Part shown: positions 14,324 to 36,861 of the stretch, piece by piece
How the letters are laid out: each line of letters starts with the position of its first letter
How positions within the stretch are numbered: the stretch's first letter is position 1
DNA from: Nodosilinea sp. P-1105
GTDB lineage: Bacteria; Cyanobacteriota; Cyanobacteriia; Phormidesmidales; Phormidesmidaceae
NCBI RefSeq assembly: GCF_012911975.1
Contig: NZ_SMDQ01000049.1
Location: 1-43,244 of the forward strand
Direction: 5' to 3'
DNA: 43,244 bases
Translations under genes and position numbers: made by a program
The notes under the pieces: model-generated
The model's input: the letters and a program-made list of their open reading frames with translations, nothing else
Databases searched by the model: none
Told to the model about the DNA's origin: nothing

Positions 14324-14361
14324 TCTGACCTCCCAGGAGGTGATTACGAGCTTAGTGATTT
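14324..14361. repeat. 38-bp repeat copy B
   Basis: 35/38 identical to 12439-12476, same orientation. It contains a perfect ACCTCC-CA-GGAGGT inverted repeat at 14329-14342. It overlaps the last codons and stop of the radical SAM gene at 14352. The two copies are 1,885 bp apart and bracket the RMD1 and two-TM genes. 14222-14323 holds nothing recognised. Confidence 0.7.
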
Positions 14362-14939
14362 TCCAACTGTCCTTGGTAACCGGTCACCAGGCGGCTGCCA
14401 TCTTTAAAAATGTGAACTTCCATCTGGTCACTGGCCCAGTTGATGCGATCGCCCATCGCCGGATTAAACACCCGCACTTGCTGGTTGCGGGATGAAACCG
14501 GTGAGGTGGGGTCATGGATCGCCAGGGATTCCACATAGGGACCATCCACCAAAATATCCAGCTGGTCCAACAAATCCTGGGCTCCCGGCGGTGCCGCCGG
14601 TGCTTGCAGTTCCCCCAGGGTAAATCCAGAAAACGACATCACATTCAGCCCCGCCGCCTTCACTCGCCGCGCCACCATCGCCAAGGCTGGAGCCTGCCAA
14701 AAGGGCTCCCCACCGGAAAATGTCACCCCTTCGTTCTCTGGATCGGCCAGAATTCGCTCCACCACATCATCCACGGACACGATCTGGTTAGGCTCGAAGG
14801 ACCAGGAGGCTTGGTTAAAGCAGCCGGGGCATTCCCGCAGGCAACCCTGGACCCAGAGCACCGCGCGGCTACCGGGGCCGTTGACCTGGGAGCGGTTAAC
14901 GTAGCCCATGATGTTGAGGTGATTGGGGGGAATGGACAT
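14352..14939 (-). CDS. NrdG-like radical SAM activating protein
   Basis: 195 aa. The radical SAM cluster motif is C-L-R-E-C-P-G-C (C-x3-C-x2-C, about residues 33-40), followed by F-S-G-G-E-P-F-W-Q. Its length and N-terminus (M-G-Y-V-N-R-S-Q-V-N-G-P-G-S-R-A-V-L-W-V-Q-G-C) match 4Fe-4S radical SAM activases of the anaerobic ribonucleotide reductase NrdG type. These generate a glycyl radical in a partner enzyme, but no glycyl-radical partner is in the window. It is the last gene of the minus-strand low-oxygen tetrapyrrole run. The frame is open to 15242, but that extension is repeat-coded His/Pro/Ser, so Met at 14939 was chosen. Confidence 0.83.
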   Translation of the reverse strand: MSIPPNHLNIMGYVNRSQVNGPGSRAVLWVQGCLRECPGCFNQASWSFEPNQIVSVDDVVERILADPENEGVTFSGGEPFWQAPALAMVARRVKAAGLNVMSFSGFTLGELQAPAAPPGAQDLLDQLDILVDGPYVESLAIHDPTSPVSSRNQQVRVFNPAMGDRINWASDQMEVHIFKDGSRLVTGYQGQLENH

Positions 14940-15045
14940 GGTGGGGTGGATGGGTGGATGAGTGGATGGGTGGATAGGTGGGTAGGTGGGTAGGTGGATG
15001 GGTGGATGGGTGGATGGGTGGATGGGTGGACCCTTGTGTCCGCCC
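14940..15045. repeat. G-rich octamer array plus half palindrome
   Basis: Units of TGGATGGG and TGGGTAGG repeat from 14940 to about 15027, directly against the start codon of the radical SAM gene. A copy of the GGAC-N6-GTCCGCCC palindrome, with its left arm eaten by the array, is at 15028-15045. It fills the gap to the flavin oxidoreductase gene. Confidence 0.75.
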
Positions 15046-15052
15046 TGAGGTC

Positions 15053-16153
15053 TTACCCGCCTACCAATTCCGCCATTACCTCCGCCACGGGCATAATCCG
15101 CTGGGCTTGGCCGACGCTGTTGCCAGCGAACACTAGGCCATTGTCCACATCGCCCCGGCAGGCGCGATCGAGGGCGCGGAGGATGCAGTAGGTTTCCCGG
15201 CTGTCGCGGAATTTGCAGACCTGGAGGCAGTTGGCGAAACATTGGTCTTTGGCACCTGGTGCTTCGCCAGCATTAACCCGGTCCACAAAGGGATTGCGGA
15301 GGGCGCGGCCCGGTAGACCAACGGGGCTGGGTACCAGCACGATGTCTTCGGGTTGGGCCTGGAGATGAAATTCTTTGTAGCGGCGATCGGCGTCACACTC
15401 GTCAGTGGGAATAAAGCGGGTGCCAATTTGTACCCCACTGGCACCGAGGCCCAAGGCTTGGAGTAACGTAGCGCGATCGCAGATTCCACCGGCCGCGATC
15501 ACTGGAATTGGGGTCTCGAAGCTCTCCGCCAGATAGCTCACCAGCTCCGGAATCACCGCCTCTGAACCGATGGCCGGGTTATCCAGATCCTCAGCCTTGG
15601 CCCCCAGGTGCCCCCCCGCTGTCTGGGGGTTTTCTACCACAAAGGCATCGGGCAGCCGACCAAAGCTGCGCTGCCACTTTTTGCAAATCACCTGGGCGGC
15701 CCGCGCACTAGAGATAATTGGCACCAGAGCCACTTCAGGTCGATGGGCGGTTAGCTCTGGCAGCGTTAGCGGCAGCCCAGCCCCTGAGAAAATTAGGTTG
15801 ACGCCATGGTCAACGGCGGTGGCGACGAGGGTCTCATAGTCCCGGGCGGCCACCATGATATTGACACCAATCACCCCGTTGGGGCTGAGGGTACGGGCTT
15901 GTTGCAGTTCGTCGATCAGCGCCAGACGGTTGGCGGCAAAAAACTGATCCTGACGCTTTTTCGGGCTTTTCTCCTCGATATCGAAATGGGGCGAATGCAT
16001 GCCCAAGCCAACTGCCGAGACCACGCCGATGCCGCCAGCGTTGGCCACCGCCGCCGCCAGGTTAGCGCCAGAGACCCGGATGCCCATGCCGCCTTGGACA
16101 ACGGGGTAGGGGACGGTGTGTTGGCCGATGGTCAGGGGGGAGAGGGGTTGCAT
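15053..16153 (-). CDS. nitronate monooxygenase-like NAD(P)H-dependent flavin oxidoreductase
   Basis: 366 aa TIM-barrel FMN enzyme. Family marks: P-V-V-Q-G-G-M-G (residues 18-25), A-A-A-V-A-N-A-G-G-I-G-V-V-S-A, G-V-N-I-M-V-A-A, then E-N-P-Q-T-A-G-G-H-L-G and G-A-S-G-V-Q-I-G-T-R-F (phosphate binding). The C-terminus carries several Cys (C-F-A-N-C-L-Q-V-C-K-F) and could hold a redox site or metal. The family oxidises nitronates, but many members are general flavin reductases and the true substrate is unknown. Position inside the low-oxygen porphyrin cluster hints at a redox partner role, which is inference. Confidence 0.85.
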   Translation of the reverse strand: MQPLSPLTIGQHTVPYPVVQGGMGIRVSGANLAAAVANAGGIGVVSAVGLGMHSPHFDIEEKSPKKRQDQFFAANRLALIDELQQARTLSPNGVIGVNIMVAARDYETLVATAVDHGVNLIFSGAGLPLTLPELTAHRPEVALVPIISSARAAQVICKKWQRSFGRLPDAFVVENPQTAGGHLGAKAEDLDNPAIGSEAVIPELVSYLAESFETPIPVIAAGGICDRATLLQALGLGASGVQIGTRFIPTDECDADRRYKEFHLQAQPEDIVLVPSPVGLPGRALRNPFVDRVNAGEAPGAKDQCFANCLQVCKFRDSRETYCILRALDRACRGDVDNGLVFAGNSVGQAQRIMPVAEVMAELVGG

Positions 16154-16310
16154 AGGGGTATTGGGTGTTGGGTATTAGGTATTGGGTAAGGGGGATGGGG
16201 GAGATGGGGAGGTGGGGAGGTGGGGAGGTGGGGAGGTGGGGAAGGTTTGGTTTAAGTAAGAATTCAAAATTCAAAATTCAAAATTCAAAATTTTGCCTTC
16301 TGCCTCTGCC
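16154..16310. repeat. tandem repeat stretch between flavin enzyme and bchE
   Basis: TTGGGTAT-like octamers (16160-16192) are followed by GGTGGGGA octamers (about 16200-16245) and four ATTCAAA heptamers (16262-16289). The first block abuts the start codon at 16153. Confidence 0.75.
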
Positions 16311-18287
16311 TCAGGTTGTCGCGGCTACTGGTATAGGCACATTGTCGTGGAGGTGGCGGATTTGGCTGGCCAGGGTGGTCATGGAGGTTTGTTTGGGGCA
16401 GTGGGCGATGTTGGAACCCTCGATACCGGTGGGGCCAGGGGGGTCGGTGGTGAGCACCACTAGCTTCAGGGGCTGGCAGGGGTTTTGTTGTTGGATTCGT
16501 TGCCAGAAGTCGGCGATGGCCATGTCGGGTAGGTGAGCATCCACCACCACCACATCGACGCCGATGGAGTCGAGCAGGACCAGGCCGGTTTCGCCATTGG
16601 TGGCTTCGCTGGCTATTTCCAGTCCAGGTTGCGATCGCAGTCCCTGGCGCAGGGCGATGCGGCTGGCTTCGTCGCTGTCCACAATCACCACCTGAATCTC
16701 GCTTTCGCTGGGGGTGTCGGTCACCTCGGGTAGGGTGTTGGGGGCACCGCAGGCAGCCACTTCCGTGAACTCCACATCCGCTAGTTTGGCGGCCTTAAGC
16801 TGGGCCATGGCCTCCGCTGAAAGAATCCGGGATTCGTCGAAGCCAAACTCAATTTCGGCGTGCATCCCTTTACGCTTCACCCGGTTCAGATTGTAGAAGC
16901 GCTTGTTCCAGGTGGTTTTGACAAAGGCCCACAGACAGCCCAGCAGGTAGCGGCGCTTAAACCCATCCCGTTCCCACCAGTACTCCCAAAACTTCCAGCC
17001 GTAGAACCGGGCATAGTTGCGCAATACCCCTTGCAGCACTTCTTCCCGGGTCATGGCGTCCGGCTTAATAATCGGCGTCACAAAGTTGTAGTGGGAATAG
17101 TCGCGGATCTCCACCTTGTCTTCGAGATCCTGGAAGAGTTCGGCAAAGGGCCAGGGGGTGTACATGTTCCAGTTGGCCATGTCGGCCCCCCAATCCCGGG
17201 CCATGCGGTAGGTTTCTTCGATGGTTTCAGGGGTTTCATTGGGCAGTCCCATGATGAACTGCACCTCCGCCAGAATGCCGTTGTCCCGCAGCAGTTTCAC
17301 CGCCCGCTTGTTGTCGGCGATGGTGGTTTCTTTGCGAAATACGTTCAGGTTTAGTTGGGCCGCAGCCTCGGTGCCCAGGGACACATGCACCAGCCCAGCT
17401 TTTCGGTACAGGGGCAGTTCGGCTTCGTCCCGTAGCACGTCGGTCACCCGGGTGTTGATCCCCCAGTGGACCGGCAGGTTGCGGGCAATCAGTTCTTCAC
17501 ACAGGGCCACAAACCGGGCCTTGCTGATGGTGGGTTCTTCGTCCGCCAGAATGAAAAAGCCCACATTGTGCTCTTTCACCAGATGCTCAATCTCATCCAC
17601 AAATTGTTTGGGCTTGCGGGCCCGATATTTGCGCCAGAATTTCCATTGACAGCAAAACCGACAGCGAAAGGGGCAGCCCCGGGCAAAGTTGGGCACGGCC
17701 ACCCGCACGTTGAGAGGGGTATAGATATAGGTATCCCAGTCCAGTAGGGTCCAGTCGGGGGTGAGGGTATTCAGGTCGCGGATGGGGGGATGGGCGGGGG
17801 TAGCTACCACCTGCCCGGCATCATCTAAATAGGCCAGGCCCAGGATCGATTCGCGATCGCGCCGATCCCGTCCTTCAGCAATGGCCCGTAGCAGGTTAAC
17901 GCTAATTTCCTCCCCTTCTCCCCGAATGATGTAGTCCACCCAGGGCGCTTCCCCCAGCACCTCCCGATACATGTAGGTGGGATGCACCCCGCCCATGATC
18001 GTCACCGCTTTTGGGCACACCGACTTGGCAATCCGCAGGGTGTCCTGGGACTTATAAATCATCGGTGTAATGGCCGTCGCCATCACCACATCGGGCTGGT
18101 GCTGGGCAATCATCGCCGCCAGGGGCTCGTCATCAATGTGGTGGGTCATGGCGTCGATGAACCGCACATCGTCAAAGCCCGCCGCCTTGAGGGCACCCCC
18201 TACGTAGGGCACCCAGCTGGGTGGCCAGTTACCAGCAATTTCGGCACCGCCAGCGTGGTAGTTGGGTTGAATCATCAAGATACGCAT
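16311..18287 (-). CDS. bchE: BchE-type anaerobic Mg-protoporphyrin IX monomethyl ester cyclase fused to a response-regulator receiver domain
   Basis: 658 aa. The N-terminal B12-binding region (residues 1-140) carries the BchE signature Q-P-N-Y-H-A-G-G-A-E-I-A-G-N-W-P-P. The radical SAM motif C-P-F-R-C-R-F-C is at 205-212, with Q-F-I-M-G-L-P-N-E-T-P-E-T later in the barrel. BchE adds water-derived oxygen to close the chlorophyll E ring without O2. A NarL-like receiver domain follows (about 530-650) with acidic D537/D539, phospho-acceptor-position D583 in V-V-V-D-A-H-L-P-D-M, T613/T614 and K632. Ordinary BchE proteins lack this module as far as I know. ATG at 18287 has AGGAG upstream; the frame is open to 18368. 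Cyanobacterial BchE relatives are not all active cyclases, so activity needs proof. Confidence 0.85.
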   Translation of the reverse strand: MRILMIQPNYHAGGAEIAGNWPPSWVPYVGGALKAAGFDDVRFIDAMTHHIDDEPLAAMIAQHQPDVVMATAITPMIYKSQDTLRIAKSVCPKAVTIMGGVHPTYMYREVLGEAPWVDYIIRGEGEEISVNLLRAIAEGRDRRDRESILGLAYLDDAGQVVATPAHPPIRDLNTLTPDWTLLDWDTYIYTPLNVRVAVPNFARGCPFRCRFCCQWKFWRKYRARKPKQFVDEIEHLVKEHNVGFFILADEEPTISKARFVALCEELIARNLPVHWGINTRVTDVLRDEAELPLYRKAGLVHVSLGTEAAAQLNLNVFRKETTIADNKRAVKLLRDNGILAEVQFIMGLPNETPETIEETYRMARDWGADMANWNMYTPWPFAELFQDLEDKVEIRDYSHYNFVTPIIKPDAMTREEVLQGVLRNYARFYGWKFWEYWWERDGFKRRYLLGCLWAFVKTTWNKRFYNLNRVKRKGMHAEIEFGFDESRILSAEAMAQLKAAKLADVEFTEVAACGAPNTLPEVTDTPSESEIQVVIVDSDEASRIALRQGLRSQPGLEIASEATNGETGLVLLDSIGVDVVVVDAHLPDMAIADFWQRIQQQNPCQPLKLVVLTTDPPGPTGIEGSNIAHCPKQTSMTTLASQIRHLHDNVPIPVAATT

Positions 18288-18362: not shown

Positions 18363-18383
18363 ATTCAAAATTCAAAATTCAAA
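18363..18383. repeat. ATTCAAA heptamer array
   Basis: Three tandem ATTCAAA units sit in the 110-bp gap between hemN and bchE. The same unit occurs at 9664-9684 and 16262-16289. Confidence 0.75.
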
Positions 18384-18397
18384 ACCAAACATTTTCG

Positions 18398-19795
18398 TCA
18401 TACCGATTGAGAAAATTGGCGGATGCTGCGATCGCGCAAATAGGTGTCAAACACCGCTGCAATATTGCGGATCAGTAAACGTCCGGCGGGTAGTACCTCA
18501 ATGTGGTTGGGGGTAAGGCGCACTAGGCCATCGGCTTCCAACCCTTGAAGGTCTTGGCGCTCGCGGGCGAAGTAGTCGTCAAAGTCCTGGTCAAAGCTGA
18601 GGTGATACTTTTCTTCGATCGCCGCCTTCGACAGCTCAAACTGACACATCAGCTCCATGATCACCGTCCGCCGCAGGATGTCGTCCTGGCTAAGAACAAC
18701 CCCTCGCTCCAGGGGCAACTGGTTGGCATCAAGGGCGCTGTAAAAGTCGTGCAGACCCTTATGGTTTTGACCGTAGACATCGTGCAACATGCTGATCGAG
18801 GTCATGCCAAAGCCCAGCAGATCTGACTCGGGCTGGGTGGTATAGCCCTGAAAGTTACGGTGCAGCTGCCCCTGGGACTGGGCGATCGCCAGTTCGTCAC
18901 CCGCTTTAGCAAAGTGGTCCATGCCAATGAACTGGTAGCCCGCCGCCGTGAGGCGATCAATGGTCATGTGGAAGATTTCTAACTTTTCCTCGGGGCCAGG
19001 TAAAGTCGTCGGGTCAATGTGCTTTTTCTGAATTGGCTTAATCCAGGGCACATAGGCAAAGTTGAACACCGCAATGCGATCGGGATCAAGGCGCAGGGTT
19101 TTCTCGATGGTGTCGCGGAAGGTGGCAAGGGACTGGTAGGGCAAGCCATAGATCAAATCCACATTCACGCTCTCGAATCCCGCCTGCCGCAGCCAGCCCA
19201 TGGCATCAAACAGCATTGACTCTGGCTGTACCCGATTCACAGCCGCCTGCACTTTCAGATCAAAGTCTTGCAGGCCAAAGCTCACCCGCTTAAAGCCCAG
19301 ATCTTTGAGAAACTGCACGTAGTCACGGTCCAAGTCCCGAGGGTTGACTTCGATGGAAATTTCCGCCTCTGGCTCAAACTGAAAGTGGTCGTGGAGCACT
19401 GTCCACAGCCGTTCCACCTGGGCCATGGTTAGGTAGCTGGGGGTACCGCCGCCCCAGTGCAATTGGTTCACCCGCCGGTTAGAGACCCGCTGAGCCACCT
19501 GGGCAATGTTGCGCTCTAGGTAGTCTAAATAAGGATCAGCCACTCGCTTGTGGCGGGTAATCACGGTGTTGCAACCACAGAAGTAGCAGGCCGACTCGCA
19601 AAAGGGAATGTGGCAGTACAGCGACAGGGGGGTTTGTTTGTAGTTGCCCACGGCCACCGCCGCCTCAAAATCCCTGAGGTTAAAGCTATCTTTCATCTCC
19701 GTCGCCGGAGGATAGCTGGTATAGCGAGGCAACGGCTGGTTGTACTTGTGCAGCAGGGCTGGATCGAAAACAACGGGGTTGGCGAGGGAAAGCAT
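18398..19795 (-). CDS. hemN: oxygen-independent coproporphyrinogen III oxidase
   Basis: 465 aa. Radical SAM cysteines C66, C70 and C73 (C-x3-C-x2-C) with the extra C75 are typical of true HemN rather than HemW. P-R-Y-T-S-Y-P-P-A near the N-terminus, H-W-G-G-G-T-P-S-Y-L, and G-L-Q-D-F-D-L-K-V-Q-A-A-V-N-R are classic HemN segments. It converts coproporphyrinogen III to protoporphyrinogen IX anaerobically. In Synechocystis, hemN is co-regulated with the low-oxygen heme oxygenase and second AcsF by ChlR; the same partners lie here on either side. The start at 19795 gives the expected length. Confidence 0.95.
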   Translation of the reverse strand: MLSLANPVVFDPALLHKYNQPLPRYTSYPPATEMKDSFNLRDFEAAVAVGNYKQTPLSLYCHIPFCESACYFCGCNTVITRHKRVADPYLDYLERNIAQVAQRVSNRRVNQLHWGGGTPSYLTMAQVERLWTVLHDHFQFEPEAEISIEVNPRDLDRDYVQFLKDLGFKRVSFGLQDFDLKVQAAVNRVQPESMLFDAMGWLRQAGFESVNVDLIYGLPYQSLATFRDTIEKTLRLDPDRIAVFNFAYVPWIKPIQKKHIDPTTLPGPEEKLEIFHMTIDRLTAAGYQFIGMDHFAKAGDELAIAQSQGQLHRNFQGYTTQPESDLLGFGMTSISMLHDVYGQNHKGLHDFYSALDANQLPLERGVVLSQDDILRRTVIMELMCQFELSKAAIEEKYHLSFDQDFDDYFARERQDLQGLEADGLVRLTPNHIEVLPAGRLLIRNIAAVFDTYLRDRSIRQFSQSV

Positions 19796-20042: not shown

Positions 20043-20792
20043 TCACTCCGTCGCCATCAACGCCACCATGCCCTGGTGCGGGTGGCGCTCCGTGCTACCC
20101 GGGCGATCCTGCCGGGTAATCAGGTCAAACACATGGTCCCCTACCGCCGCCCGCACATCCGGCTCCAGCTCATGGAACACATCCCGGTTCAGGGCAAAGG
20201 CCAAATTGGCCTCATCCACCAACTGCTGGATCAACGCCTCATCCATTGGTAGGGCATTCAAGGCCTCCCGATACTTCACCTTAAAATCACGCTTGGCCTC
20301 TACCGTGGGCAGTTGATCAAATTCATGCAAACCCGTACCGCGATCGGGGGGTAGATCCAGGGCCGATCGCACAATGTGCCGCAACCCTTGCCCACCGGAT
20401 AAATCACCCATGTAGCGTACATAGGCATGGGCCAGTAGCAGCGCCGGGTTACTGCGGGACACCTCCCGAATGCGGCTGACATAGTGCTCCCCGGCTGGGG
20501 TAGCAGCAATCTCATTCCGCCAGTTGTCGCCGTAATAGTAGGCCAGGTCGTCTTCCAGCTTGGGGGTGCGCAGCAGCTCAGTAAATAGCATTGGCCCCAC
20601 CACCGGGTGGCCGGCGTGTCGTGCCATTTCCGCCTCTAGGGCACTGTAGAGAAAATAGAGATCGGCGGTGAGCTTGCGAAAGGGTTCTAGCTCTACCACC
20701 CCCTTGAGAAAGCATTTCATAAAAGCGGTATTTTCAGACAGGGTATGGGAGGTTTGGGTCCCTTCCCGCAGTTGCTGGGCTAAAGTTGTCAT
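20043..20792 (-). CDS. ho: heme oxygenase (biliverdin-producing)
   Basis: 249 aa, typical cyanobacterial HO length. Proximal heme ligand His16 lies in R-E-G-T-Q-T-S-H-T. The distal helix is Y-V-R-Y-M-G-D-L-S-G-G-Q-G-L-R-H-I with the flexible glycines. HO cleaves heme to biliverdin, CO and iron, supplying phycobilin precursors. Clustering with hemN and a second cyclase suggests the low-oxygen isoform (HO2 type). AAGAGG precedes the ATG by 8 nt, and a sigma70-like promoter lies upstream at 20826-20853. Confidence 0.95.
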   Translation of the reverse strand: MTTLAQQLREGTQTSHTLSENTAFMKCFLKGVVELEPFRKLTADLYFLYSALEAEMARHAGHPVVGPMLFTELLRTPKLEDDLAYYYGDNWRNEIAATPAGEHYVSRIREVSRSNPALLLAHAYVRYMGDLSGGQGLRHIVRSALDLPPDRGTGLHEFDQLPTVEAKRDFKVKYREALNALPMDEALIQQLVDEANLAFALNRDVFHELEPDVRAAVGDHVFDLITRQDRPGSTERHPHQGMVALMATE

Positions 20793-20853: not shown

Positions 20854-21331
20854 GCTGTTGAAGTTACGTTTTGTATCTGCTGTCGGGTGGAACCGCTGCC
20901 GCACTTCCCCGTCAAACGGGAGTCTCGACAGTCTTCTCGGGTTCTGTGGACATCGAGTGGAACTCTTTAGGGCTACCCAAAAAACAGCACCATCCATAAG
21001 TAGGTAGGCTCAGTTATCTTGTAGCCGGGTTTCGACTTCGCTCAACCCTCAAACCCTTGCCAGGCAAAGGATCTAGCTGATTTCGACTCCGCTCAATCAG
21101 CGGCGGGTGTGACGTTTGATTAGCCCCGGCTACTTAGCAGGCAGGGCACTGGGCAAAAGATAGCAGGCAAACGTTGCAGGCCTGGCTTGCTGGACATGGC
21201 TGATGATGTGATACGCTTAATAGCCATTAAGTGATTGAGTGATTCTCTGGCGCGATATCCTCTGGCTGATGTCCGCTCTCCTCTCTCCGCCGAGGATCGC
21301 CACTCCTGTTGTTTATGGGCGAATGATTTTT
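20854..21331. other. divergent ho/acsF intergenic region
   Basis: The 539-bp gap between the divergent genes has no ORF that I believe. It holds the ho promoter, two conserved-core hairpins (21027-21048 with arms GGGTT/AACCC, and 21077-21100 with arms CTGATT/AATCAG), and a dyad just upstream of acsF at 21216-21231. Any shared oxygen-responsive control would have to act here. Confidence 0.6.
21216..21231. promoter_or_regulatory. 16-bp dyad upstream of acsF, candidate operator
   Basis: CTTAAT-AGCC-ATTAAG is a perfect inverted repeat about 100 bp before the acsF start. Its AT-rich dyad form fits MarR-family operators. ChlR, the known activator of such clusters, is MarR-like, but assignment to it is inference and chlR is not recognised in the window. 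Confidence 0.45.
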
Positions 21332-22408
21332 ATGGTGACTGCGCTACCTAAACCTGCTCCTCAACCCAGTGACAGTGGGGTAAAAACCGCCATCGAAGAA
21401 AACCTGCTGTCTCCCCGTTTTTACATTACCGATTTTGACAAAGCTGCCACTATGGATCTGTCCCTGGAAGCAGAGGGATTGCAGGCCATGCTGGAGGAAA
21501 TGCGGGCTGACTATAACCGCCACCACTTCATCCGCGATGACTCGTTCAAACAGGCCTGGGATCACATTCAGGGGGAAGAACGTCAAGCATTTATCGACTA
21601 TTTAGAGCGCTCCTGTGTCTCTGAGTTTTCTGGGTTCTTACTCTTCAAGGAACTATCTCGCAAACTCAAAGGTCGCAGCCCCATGCTGTCGGAGATCTTT
21701 CACCTGATGGCCCGGGACGAGGCCCGCCATGCCGGGTTCCTAAACAAGTGCATGCAGGATTTCAACATTTCCCTGGACCTGGCTAAGCTCACCAAAAACC
21801 GCACCTACACCTTTTTCCCGGTGGAGTGGATCGTCTATGCCGTTTATCTCTCAGAAAAGATCGGCTACTGGCGCTATATCTTGATTTATCGCCACCTGGA
21901 AAACCATCCTGAGAACCGCTTCTATCCGCTGTTCAACTACTTTGAGAGCTGGTGCCAGGATGAAAACCGTCATGGGGATATTTTTAAGGCCTTGGTGCGA
22001 TCGCAGCCCCACATGTGGGACACCTGGAAAGGCCGCCTCTGGAGCCGCTTTTTCCTACTTTCGGTGTTTGCCACCCACAGCCTGACGGTGCATGAGCGGG
22101 CCAAGTTTTACGAAATGCTGGGCCTTGACGCCACCGAGTTTGACACCGAAGTGGTGCGCAAAACCAATGACACCGCCGCCCGCGCCTTCCCGGTCTGCCT
22201 GAATGTCGACCATCCCCAGTTTTTCCCCCGCCTAGAGCGGGCCGCCAGCCGCAACCTCAAAATCAAGCAGCTGATGGAAAGCGCGACCCCCCACTGGCTG
22301 AAGCAACTACGCAAGCTGCCCCTGGTGCTGGGGATTGTCGGCGATCTGCTGCGGCTGTATTTGATCAAACCAATCAATGCCGAAGTGTTACGGGGGACCG
22401 TGCGATGA
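21332..22408 (+). CDS. acsF: aerobic Mg-protoporphyrin IX monomethyl ester (oxidative) cyclase, AcsF/ChlA, probably the low-oxygen isoform
   Basis: 358 aa di-iron enzyme. L-S-P-R-F-Y-I-T-D-F (26-35) is the family N-terminus. Iron ligands lie in E98-F-S-G, D129-E-A-R-H133 and D210-E-N-R-H214. It closes the chlorophyll E ring with O2 and electrons. Cyanobacteria often have two copies; the one beside ho and hemN is the micro-oxic one (ChlAII in Synechocystis), which is the basis for this isoform call. The frame is open from 21239; ATG 21332 gives the usual length and start V-T-A-L-P. It is divergent from ho and convergent with folC. Confidence 0.93.
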   Translation: MVTALPKPAPQPSDSGVKTAIEENLLSPRFYITDFDKAATMDLSLEAEGLQAMLEEMRADYNRHHFIRDDSFKQAWDHIQGEERQAFIDYLERSCVSEFSGFLLFKELSRKLKGRSPMLSEIFHLMARDEARHAGFLNKCMQDFNISLDLAKLTKNRTYTFFPVEWIVYAVYLSEKIGYWRYILIYRHLENHPENRFYPLFNYFESWCQDENRHGDIFKALVRSQPHMWDTWKGRLWSRFFLLSVFATHSLTVHERAKFYEMLGLDATEFDTEVVRKTNDTAARAFPVCLNVDHPQFFPRLERAASRNLKIKQLMESATPHWLKQLRKLPLVLGIVGDLLRLYLIKPINAEVLRGTVR

Positions 22409-32205: not shown

Positions 32206-33708
32206 ATGGCGCACCCTTGGTCCCAGCTTACCCAACGCCTGAGCCGTTGGATTGATCCACAGTCGTTACAAACCCGGTTAACCGCTGGGGTGGTTTTAGC
32301 CTCATTAGTGGGCATTGGCACCATGGCCGCCTGGATGGGGTGGCGCACCCGACAAATCCTGCTAGAGAGGCATCGCCATGACGCCCAAATCATTGCCGAT
32401 CGCTTCATGGAAGATGTGCGCTCTTATACCGCCACCATGCCCGCTGATGATGCCCTGCAAAAGGTGATTGACCACCGGACCACCGGCGACTTAGCCCTGT
32501 GGGTCACCACCTCTGACGGCGAATTGCTGGCCCAGTCTGAAACTTTGAATATGGGCTCCTGGCAAACCTCGGGGGTGGCCGATCAGCTATTACAACAAGA
32601 AATGCCGCCGGGGCTAATGTTTAAAACCGTGCAGGGCTGGCAGTTTGTCCTGTGCACCGAGGACTTAGACCTGCCTGGCCTGCCAGTGGGTACCTTGACC
32701 ATCGCCAACGACATTACCGCCGACTACCAGGGCCTGCTGCGGCTGCTGCGCATGCTACTGCTGACCAGCCTGGGCATGGTGACAGTGCTAGCGGTGGCCT
32801 TTGCCCTATACATTCGCCGTACCCTCAGCCCGATTCGCCAGTTAAACCAGTTGGCCAGTCAGGTGACGGCAGAGACCCTGGGGGACCATCAACTGTGTTT
32901 GCAAGCGGCCCCCACCGAGGTCCAAGAACTGGCCCGCACCTACAATCTGATGCTGAGCCGCCTATCGAGGGCATGGCGTCAACAAAAACGTTTTGTCAAT
33001 GATATTTCCCACGAGCTGCGCACCCCCTTGTCCCTGGTGCAGGGGTATCTGGAAGGCACCCTGCGCCGGGGCGACAATCTCACTCCACCCCAGCGACAGG
33101 GCCTGGAAATTGCCGCCGTGGAAACTCACCGCACCGTCCATTTACTGACTGAACTGCTGGAGCTGGCTCGCCTCGACAATGGCCAAATGCCCTTGACCCT
33201 GGAACCAACGGATCTGCAGGTTGTGCTTAAGGATGCGATCGCGGTGGTGGAGGGGGGCTATGCCACTGGCGGTAATACCGCAGACGGCCTGGTGCCAGAC
33301 CCGATGATGCCCGTCTCTATGGAAGCTAACCGGATTGTCCTAGCCACGGAGTCGCCCCCGCCAGTGGCACGGGTAGATCGCCACAAGCTGCGCACAGTGC
33401 TGGTGGAGTTGCTGGACAATGCCCTACGTTATTCCGACTCTAAGTATCCCGTGCAGGTGAAGCTATTCAGCCACACCGGCCAGGCCACAATTCAGGTGCG
33501 TGATCAAGGGCAGGGAATTGATGCCCCTGACCAAGGAGATATCTTTGACCCGTTTTATCGAGTAGACGACGACCGCTCCCGCAGTACCGGCGGCACCGGC
33601 CTGGGGCTAACCCTGGTGCGATCGCTGATTGAAGCCATGGAAGGCCAGGTCAGCGTGTGCTCTCAGCCTGGCCAGGGCAGCGTATTTACCATCACCTTAC
33701 CAATGTAG
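32206..33708 (+). CDS. membrane sensor histidine kinase
   Basis: 500 aa. TM1 at about 27-45, an extracytoplasmic sensor region (46-180), TM2 at about 182-203, a HAMP domain (R-R-T-L-S-P-I-R-Q-L-N-Q-L), HisKA with the phospho-His in F-V-N-D-I-S-H-E-L-R-T-P (about residue 269), then HATPase boxes L-D-N-A-L-R-Y, D-Q-G-Q-G-I and G-G-T-G-L-G-L-T-L. It phosphorylates the response regulator encoded 11 bp downstream. The signal is unknown; envelope genes nearby are only weak hints. Confidence 0.93.
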   Translation: MAHPWSQLTQRLSRWIDPQSLQTRLTAGVVLASLVGIGTMAAWMGWRTRQILLERHRHDAQIIADRFMEDVRSYTATMPADDALQKVIDHRTTGDLALWVTTSDGELLAQSETLNMGSWQTSGVADQLLQQEMPPGLMFKTVQGWQFVLCTEDLDLPGLPVGTLTIANDITADYQGLLRLLRMLLLTSLGMVTVLAVAFALYIRRTLSPIRQLNQLASQVTAETLGDHQLCLQAAPTEVQELARTYNLMLSRLSRAWRQQKRFVNDISHELRTPLSLVQGYLEGTLRRGDNLTPPQRQGLEIAAVETHRTVHLLTELLELARLDNGQMPLTLEPTDLQVVLKDAIAVVEGGYATGGNTADGLVPDPMMPVSMEANRIVLATESPPPVARVDRHKLRTVLVELLDNALRYSDSKYPVQVKLFSHTGQATIQVRDQGQGIDAPDQGDIFDPFYRVDDDRSRSTGGTGLGLTLVRSLIEAMEGQVSVCSQPGQGSVFTITLPM

Positions 33709-36346: not shown

Positions 36347-36381
36347 TTCGTTCTTCGTTCTTCGTTCTTCGTTCTTCATTC
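36347..36381. repeat. five tandem heptamers
   Basis: Four TTCGTTC units and one TTCATTC unit. The MarR stop codon (36376-36378) lies within the last unit. Confidence 0.85.
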
Positions 36382-36861
36382 AGTATCCCCATGTGCCTGC
36401 CCTAGGGCGGACACATGGGGTTCCTCAAACAAGGTGCTCAGGAGGGCTAGCCCAGCGCTAATTTGATTCAGCTGTGCCGCCGATAACGCCTCCAGTCGAT
36501 CGGCTACGGTTTGCTGGGTGGCGCGGTAAACCCGCTCCATGGTGGCGGTGCCCTCAGGGGTAAGGCTGAGGATAATCCGCCGTCGCTCTGACGGGTCAGG
36601 ACTCCGATGCACCAGCCCCCGCTGTACCAGGCGGTCTACCATGGCCGACATGGTAGGTCGAGTAACGTCCAGGTAGTCGGCTACTGCTGACAGGGATGAC
36701 TGCGATCGCCGTTGCAAAAAGTACAGTACTCGCAGCTGCGACAGCGACAGATGAGGCTTGCCGTGGCTACGGATACTGGCCCGCAGGAACCGGGTCACAG
36801 CGGGTACCACAGTCATGATGCTGTCCGCGCACTGGTCGGGGGTGATTAGGGTCGCCGCCAT
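36376..36861 (-). CDS. MarR-family transcriptional regulator
   Basis: 161 aa winged-helix protein. Helices L-S-L-S-Q-L-R-V-L-Y-F-L and recognition helix V-T-R-P-T-M-S-A-M-V-D-R-L, then the wing D-P-S-E-R-R-R-I-I-L-S-L-T-P-E-G. It likely represses the ABC exporter operon downstream and itself. A perfect 15-bp dyad sits just before its start (36880-36894). Only one Cys is present near the N-terminus, so it does not look like the Fe-S regulator ChlR. Its last codons overlap a large palindrome and the heptamer array, so the C-terminus appears repeat-derived. Confidence 0.88.
   Translation of the reverse strand: MAATLITPDQCADSIMTVVPAVTRFLRASIRSHGKPHLSLSQLRVLYFLQRRSQSSLSAVADYLDVTRPTMSAMVDRLVQRGLVHRSPDPSERRRIILSLTPEGTATMERVYRATQQTVADRLEALSAAQLNQISAGLALLSTLFEEPHVSALGQAHGDTE
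36387..36420. repeat. 34-bp palindrome within the marR 3' coding end
   Basis: The arms CCCCATGTG and CACATGGGG enclose GCCCTAGGGC. It contains a half copy of the GGGCGGAC palindrome and encodes the last 12 or so residues of the MarR protein. Confidence 0.65.

Follow-up and report, generated by a model that had tools for sequence, protein, structure and literature searches.

What does a response-regulator receiver domain do at the end of a chlorophyll-synthesis enzyme? The question is raised by a locus of Nodosilinea sp. P-1105, where a single uninterrupted open reading frame of 658 amino acids (16311..18287, reverse strand; it runs from an ATG at 18287 to a stop codon whose last base is 16311, with an AGGAG 7 bases 5' of the ATG) joins the anaerobic cyclase BchE, or ChlE, to a C-terminal domain of receiver type. 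Coordinates refer to the window, by which we mean the whole stretch of 43,244 nucleotides that was analysed. A preliminary description of this DNA had proposed that the cyclase may be controlled through phosphorylation of D583, and had called the layout one that its author had not seen described for BchE. The open-access matches listed likewise contain no description of a receiver domain in or beside BchE.

An anaerobic cyclase that ends in a receiver fold

Residues 1-496 (16800..18287, reverse strand) form a BchE body, residues 2-496 of which match the curated equivalog model TIGR02026 at 766.7 bits, over a cut-off of 481.35, and this places the protein within the BchE/ChlE family. A B12-binding domain spans residues 12-132 (17892..18254, reverse strand; PF02310, 84.3 bits) and a Radical SAM domain residues 200-362 (17202..17690, reverse strand; PF04055, 88.6 bits). 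The cluster loop C205-x3-C209-x2-C212 (17652..17675, reverse strand), which supplies the CxxxCxxC cysteines of the radical SAM family, is invariant across 28 aligned fused proteins. The body and its cysteines are as the preliminary description had read them. The best solved-fold matches of the window model are the B12-dependent radical SAM proteins TsrM, AprD4, OxsB and TokK, which we compared by structure title only, and these titles name no receiver domain. Functional chlE genes are reportedly present in two Cyanothece strains, as Yamanashi is said to have found in 2015.

The body is followed by a BchE C-terminal tail with an ACGAPN motif and by a linker (residues 497-530; 16698..16799, reverse strand). 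Model confidence is low here, and a similar tail ends most unfused cyanobacterial-type BchEs. The tail motif, of the form ISACGAPNDLPE, is kept in most cyanobacterial-type BchEs whether or not they carry a receiver, and is duplicated in one (L016).

The remaining domain (residues 531-650; 16338..16697, reverse strand) lies beyond the family model, and no counterpart was seen in the f7 and f6 cyanobacterial BchEs examined. It scores 178.6 bits with an HMM of its own family, and residues 533-614 match Response_reg (PF00072) at 35.9 bits, over a cut-off of 30.2, along profile positions 1-78 of 111. In the predicted fold, residues 531-649 present beta-alpha elements in receiver order without alpha4, an element that is present in the model of the copy from Oscillatoria PCC 10802. 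Receivers of the NarL and CheY types are among the Foldseek matches of the window model, and by sequence VraR, NarL and DevR are among the closest relatives of solved structure. The NarL-like receiver homology claimed for this region is borne out. Over residues 367-528 pLDDT is mostly below 50, and the model does not fix how the domain is oriented on the body; attempts to read a body-to-receiver interface from the models were given up for the same low confidence.

The fusion recurs across cyanobacteria

We then considered how widely the layout is shared. In a sample of the phylum, the TIGR02026 cut-off was exceeded in 20 of 386 genomes, and in 0 of 14 control genomes. Four of the 20 encode a fusion (G000, G157, G060 and G262), the receiver is the next gene in G368 and lies elsewhere in the genome in G286, 11 have f7 BchEs with a short tail and no receiver in the 1.5 kb flank, and three have the very different, purple-type BchEs of f6. 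Within the window's order, cyanobacterial-type BchE was found in 10 of 63 genomes, and all ten proteins are extended, one of them ended by its contig inside the receiver; an eleventh genome, which passed the threshold through a distant partial match only, was left out of the ten. In a sample of the class Cyanobacteriia that is weighted towards the window's own family, 40 of 388 genomes hold a cyanobacterial-type BchE at an E-value threshold of 1e-150, with up to three candidates per genome scored; the fusion is found in 30 of these 40. All the BchEs are fused in families f1 (10/10), f5 (6/6), f19 (2/2), f11 (1/1) and f45 (1/1), most in f15 (6/7) and f26 (4/5), and none in f7 (0/6), f29 (0/1) and f46 (0/1).

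The preliminary description had named two findings that would count against it, a lack of receiver homology and a frameshift or assembly join at about residues 515-530. PF00072 matches the domain, and because the same domain recurs in 30 of the 40 genomes, a join artefact is ruled out, as is the idea that the fusion is peculiar to this genome. The table of a 2015 review (PMC4500134) gives bchE in 2 of 37 cyanobacterial species; the gene seems to be less rare than this in cyanobacteria, judging from 20 of 386 genomes in the phylum and 40 of 388 in the class sample that leans to the window's family.

A scan of contigs yielded 34 loci, of which 30 encode the fusion (two ended by the contig, one with an in-frame stop) and four are remnants. 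Carriers include Planktothrix paucivesiculata PCC 9631, Oscillatoria sp. PCC 10802, Leptolyngbya sp. PCC 7375, Nodosilinea nodulosa PCC 7104, Phormidesmis priestleyi ULC007 and Oculatella sp. LEGE 06141. A further genome of the window's genus, G406, has a receiver tail identical to that of Nodosilinea nodulosa PCC 7104 (L044 = L096). Run with two peptide patterns, the scan returned cyanobacterial records only.

Some loci depart from the common arrangement. An in-frame TAG interrupts the N-terminal part of one fused bchE (L054/L087), which is a pseudogene or an assembly error. At the four remnants (L075, L103, L104 and L102) a receiver tail survives the complete or extensive loss of bchE: L075 is missing BchE residues about 129-496, L103 is from Planktothrix rubescens PCC7821, and L102 is a receiver copy without beta1 on a Synechococcus lacustris MAG contig. 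In Oculatella LEGE 06141 a remnant (L104) adjoins one chlAII-ho2-hemN cluster, and the fusion is intact at another locus (L078). The f6 cyanobacteria have a second BchE, very divergent and of purple type, that exceeds the cut-off, and look-alikes of it are present in two genomes of the window's family (L022, L023, L024; L045, L046); one of these two, G399, encodes the fusion as well.

Separate receiver genes and co-occurrence with BchE

The domain also exists as a protein of its own. In G494, G525 and G368 a separate receiver gene starts 7, 110 and 14 bases, respectively, after the bchE stop, counted from the ATG favoured by alignment, and G286 has a 128-aa copy distal to bchE. A profile of the receiver family (A4) gave 32 matches at 136.5-227 bits followed by a gap, with ordinary NarL-type regulators at or below 124.6 bits; at most ten candidates were scored per genome, and weak copies may escape. 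All 32 matches fall in genomes with cyanobacterial-type BchE. Taking the class samples for BchE and for the receiver family as one draw, on the strength of matching genome handles, 33 of the 40 genomes that hold a cyanobacterial-type BchE also hold the family (the 32 and the truncated G411), as against 0 of 348 others, which may include carriers of f6-type BchE (Fisher p 2e-41, with genomes treated as independent despite kinship).

The association does not run fully in the other direction. The receiver domain is absent in all six sampled f7 BchE genomes and in G449, so BchE can do without it, which suggests that the domain is dispensable for catalysis as such. Of 492 body positions, 10 separate receiver carriers from f7, and as phylogeny alone can explain them we dropped them as candidates for partner-specific residues.

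Erosion of the phosphorylation site

According to PMC12632262, a pseudo-receiver is an identified receiver that lacks at least one of five residues, among them a second acidic residue that binds the metal directly. At the five canonical positions the window protein has D537, S538, D583, T613 and K632. The preliminary description had placed D537, D583, T613 and K632 correctly, and had taken D539 for the second acid; this residue lies one position late, and at the true position, 538 (16674..16676, reverse strand), a Ser replaces the metal-binding acid. The window domain has receiver homology by PF00072 and lacks the residue set of a phosphorylatable receiver.

For a wider comparison we merged duplicate receiver tails into 38 distinct ones, left L038, which is ended by its contig, out of the five-residue count, and excluded the remnants L075, L102, L103 and L104 from the fused set. 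All five residues were found in register in 0 of 37 complete fused copies and 0 of 4 separate copies, as against 6 of 6 regulators of the parental type. Judged by these residues, every complete copy is a pseudo-receiver as PMC12632262 defines the term. The pattern of loss differs between groups. Among distinct tails of the window's family the second acid is kept in 0/10, the phosphoacceptor Asp in 3/10, the window (D583; 16539..16541, reverse strand) included, Thr/Ser in 8/9 and Lys in 2/9, with N, T, S or C at the phosphoacceptor position in the other seven; among fused copies outside this family the corresponding counts are 14/28, 27/28, 0/28 and 27/28. The phosphoacceptor is G in one fusion outside the window's family, and two of the separate copies have A and P there. 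At D+8, where the parental types have Gly, 36 of 37 fused copies have Leu, Ile or Val.

The Thr/Ser position is sensitive to register, since 17 of the 28 copies outside the window's family have a Thr one residue past it. When Thr or Ser there is accepted, 7/28 become complete outside the window's family, and 0 in this family and 0 among separate copies, so some relatives may still be phosphorylated.

Probable derivation from a NarL/LuxR-type regulator

In the ten genomes searched, the nearest other proteins are full-length NarL/LuxR-type regulators (L106, L109-L112 and L115). These cyanobacterial regulators are 38-45% identical to the receiver copy of L067, a fusion of 763 aa, and the six that we aligned, picked non-randomly from the best full-length matches at one per genome, keep all five catalytic residues, unlike the pseudo-receiver copies. 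The one scanned, L106, has a clear GerE domain. In the window protein GerE, the C-terminal HTH, gave no match, and the protein does not have the make-up of a NarL/LuxR-type transcription factor. L067, alone among the seven BchEs scanned, has a weak GerE match after its receiver (19.6 bits, cut-off 23.5), and in the separate 207-aa receiver protein of L005 a long stretch at the C-terminus matches no Pfam family. Taken together with the full-length regulators as nearest relatives, the weak GerE remnant and this long stretch indicate that the receiver module most likely started as a whole response regulator.

In a quick tree of BchE bodies L005 is basal, followed by f7 and then by a clade that holds all fusions, with the separate and distal cases nested inside it; about four changes between fused and unfused states are needed. 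The tree has SH-aLRT support only, leaves 15 of 47 inner branches open, does not tell gains from splits or settle a single origin, and includes L054 with a short body of 306 residues.

Constraint on the domain

The most constrained part of the domain is the beta2-alpha2 stretch (EIASEATNGETGLVLLDSI; residues 557-575, 16563..16619, reverse strand), which is 94% identical among fused copies outside the window's family, 85% between the window's family and the others, and 90% between separate and fused copies, against 53% among the six parental types. The opposite holds for beta4-alpha4 (17% between the window's family and other fused copies; 83% among parental types), and neither beta1-alpha1 (40% between fused groups vs 79% parental) nor beta3 (60% vs 87%) is specially kept.

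We estimated omega by a simple Nei-Gojobori calculation in which some dS values were saturated. For the N-terminal half of the receiver, eight pairs from the window's family gave 0.05-0.20, and five other pairs gave 0.03-0.08. The C-terminal half gave 0.26-0.56 in window-family pairs, where it is relaxed, and 0.06-0.16 in four of the five others. Low omega and beta2-alpha2 identity together show that the domain is under selection, and that this selection is strongest on a part away from the phosphotransfer residues.

A proposed pseudo-receiver partner of the cyclase

We favour a reading, to which we assign a probability of roughly 0.6, in which the receiver is a dedicated pseudo-receiver partner of the anaerobic cyclase that acts by docking or allostery, presumably through contact with BchE. 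It sets out from the homology, fusion, adjacency and co-occurrence described above, the loss of catalytic residues, and purifying selection under which beta2-alpha2 is best kept. A NarL/LuxR-type response regulator would have become tied to cyanobacterial BchE and lost its DNA-binding domain and one or more phosphorylation-site residues, leaving a module that serves as an accessory dedicated to BchE, encoded beside bchE or fused to the BchE C-terminus. The beta2-alpha2 face would dock either on the body of BchE or on a single partner that all carriers share, and the pseudo-receiver might thereby assemble, stabilise or gate the cyclase without Asp phosphorylation. A partial parallel, for which we claim no homology, is the CikA pseudo-receiver, whose alpha1-beta2-alpha2 surface binds KaiB as described in PMC12632262; the parallel is limited to beta2-alpha2, since beta1-alpha1 is not specially kept. 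Pseudo-receivers of the CikA, KaiA, NblR and FrzS types share with the window a receiver fold without the catalytic residues, but in the account of them available from PMC12632262 none is linked to an enzyme of the radical SAM type or of chlorophyll synthesis. Counting against docking are the BchEs of f7 and G449 that have no such domain, the relaxed C-terminal half in the window's family, the seven of 28 copies outside this family that a shifted Thr/Ser would complete, and the D and K that 27 of these 28 retain.

The retained D and K bear on the proposal that a histidine kinase phosphorylates D583 and so alters the activity, stability or partners of the cyclase. Receiver homology, Asp and Lys in the window and in 27/28 copies outside its family, a second acid in half of the latter and the seven copies completed by a shifted Thr/Ser would all suit a true phospho-switch, as would the kinase-like ORF within about 1.5 kb of bchE at two unfused f7 loci (L010 and L012). 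The proposal fares poorly on the remaining evidence: no fused or separate copy is complete in register, where all six parental types are; the phosphoacceptor itself has been replaced in most of the window's family; the window's second acid is Ser; and D+8 has changed from the parental Gly. Kinase-like ORFs occur at 5 of the 34 fusion-scan loci, none adjoining bchE, in a search with one kinase as query and several loci shortened by contig ends; in the window a HAMP histidine kinase (32206-33708) lies about 14 kb from bchE. We consider control by D583 phosphorylation quite improbable. Still less probable is that the domain is a passenger, a neutral fusion decaying without function. The eroded active site, the relaxed C-terminal half in the window's family and the tails that outlive bchE at the remnants are what such decay would leave, but omega in the N-terminal half is 0.03-0.20 in 13 of 13 pairs, beta2-alpha2 stays at 85-94% identity across separate and fused copies, and 33 of the 40 genomes that have a cyanobacterial-type BchE carry the domain.

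A domain that senses rather than receives phosphate, binding a pigment, a quinone or a thiol-redox partner and gating BchE in response, is unlikely in our estimate, though it has precedents. According to PMC12632262, quinones are ligands of the CikA and KaiA pseudo-receivers, and the ligands of the atypical regulators JadR1 and RedZ are end products of their pathways; the cyanobacterial regulators Rre1, RpaA and RpaB are thiol-switched in vitro, as reported in PMC9321951. Two residues ahead of the Lys position there is a Cys in 6 of the 9 copies of the window's family that extend this far, in 25 of the 28 other fused copies and in all four separate ones; the same Cys is found in 5 of 6 parental types and was probably inherited, which weakens the case for a special redox switch in the receiver. 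It is in the same way doubtful that the pseudo-receiver is a regulatory subunit, derived from a transcription factor, that senses a chlorophyll intermediate, a quinone or the redox state and that directly gates BchE, whether in cis or in trans. If it were, control of anaerobic chlorophyll synthesis would act on the enzyme in addition to the gene.

Reconstitution of purified BchE had not been reported by 2015, according to PMC4500134, and a partner found only with BchE, both separate and fused, is a lead for reconstituting the cyclase. The family, in which one fusion retains a weak trace of the HTH and some copies are separate genes adjoining bchE, also offers a natural experiment in how a phospho-regulated transcription factor becomes an enzyme-bound module, and this in a group of proteins, the bacterial pseudo-receivers, whose activation mechanisms are called a mystery in PMC12632262.

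Surroundings of the fusion gene

The upstream neighbour of the fusion gene is hemN, for oxygen-independent coproporphyrinogen III oxidase (18398..19795, reverse strand; TIGR00538, 689.5 bits). It is followed by a heme oxygenase gene (20043..20792, reverse strand; PF01126, 249.7 bits), named ho2 by position as in PMC4500134, and by a divergent gene for an AcsF/ChlA-type oxygen-dependent cyclase (21239..22408, forward strand; TIGR02029, 513.8 bits), named chlAII by position. These surroundings, which the window shares with the known bchE setting, resemble a low-oxygen tetrapyrrole cluster; in Cyanothece PCC 7425, as given in PMC4500134, bchE lies directly downstream of chlAII-ho2-hemN. Such a neighbourhood is common and not universal, since at several fused loci, Planktothrix included, neither hemN nor heme oxygenase was found within the available flanking DNA.

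A MarR-type regulator gene (36376-36861), which together with the histidine kinase gene lies 14-18 kb from bchE, was considered as ChlR and set aside, as its product has a single Cys only. Short repeats of the AATTCAAA type flank the fusion gene on both sides (16200-16295 and 18364-18388); downstream of the gene there is also a repeat of the GGGGAGGT type. A Fer4_12 protein encoded at 14352-15242, which we named NrdG-like, shows a histidine/proline-rich run (IHPSTHPPIHLP...) before its domain, and this is probably the product of a wrong start.
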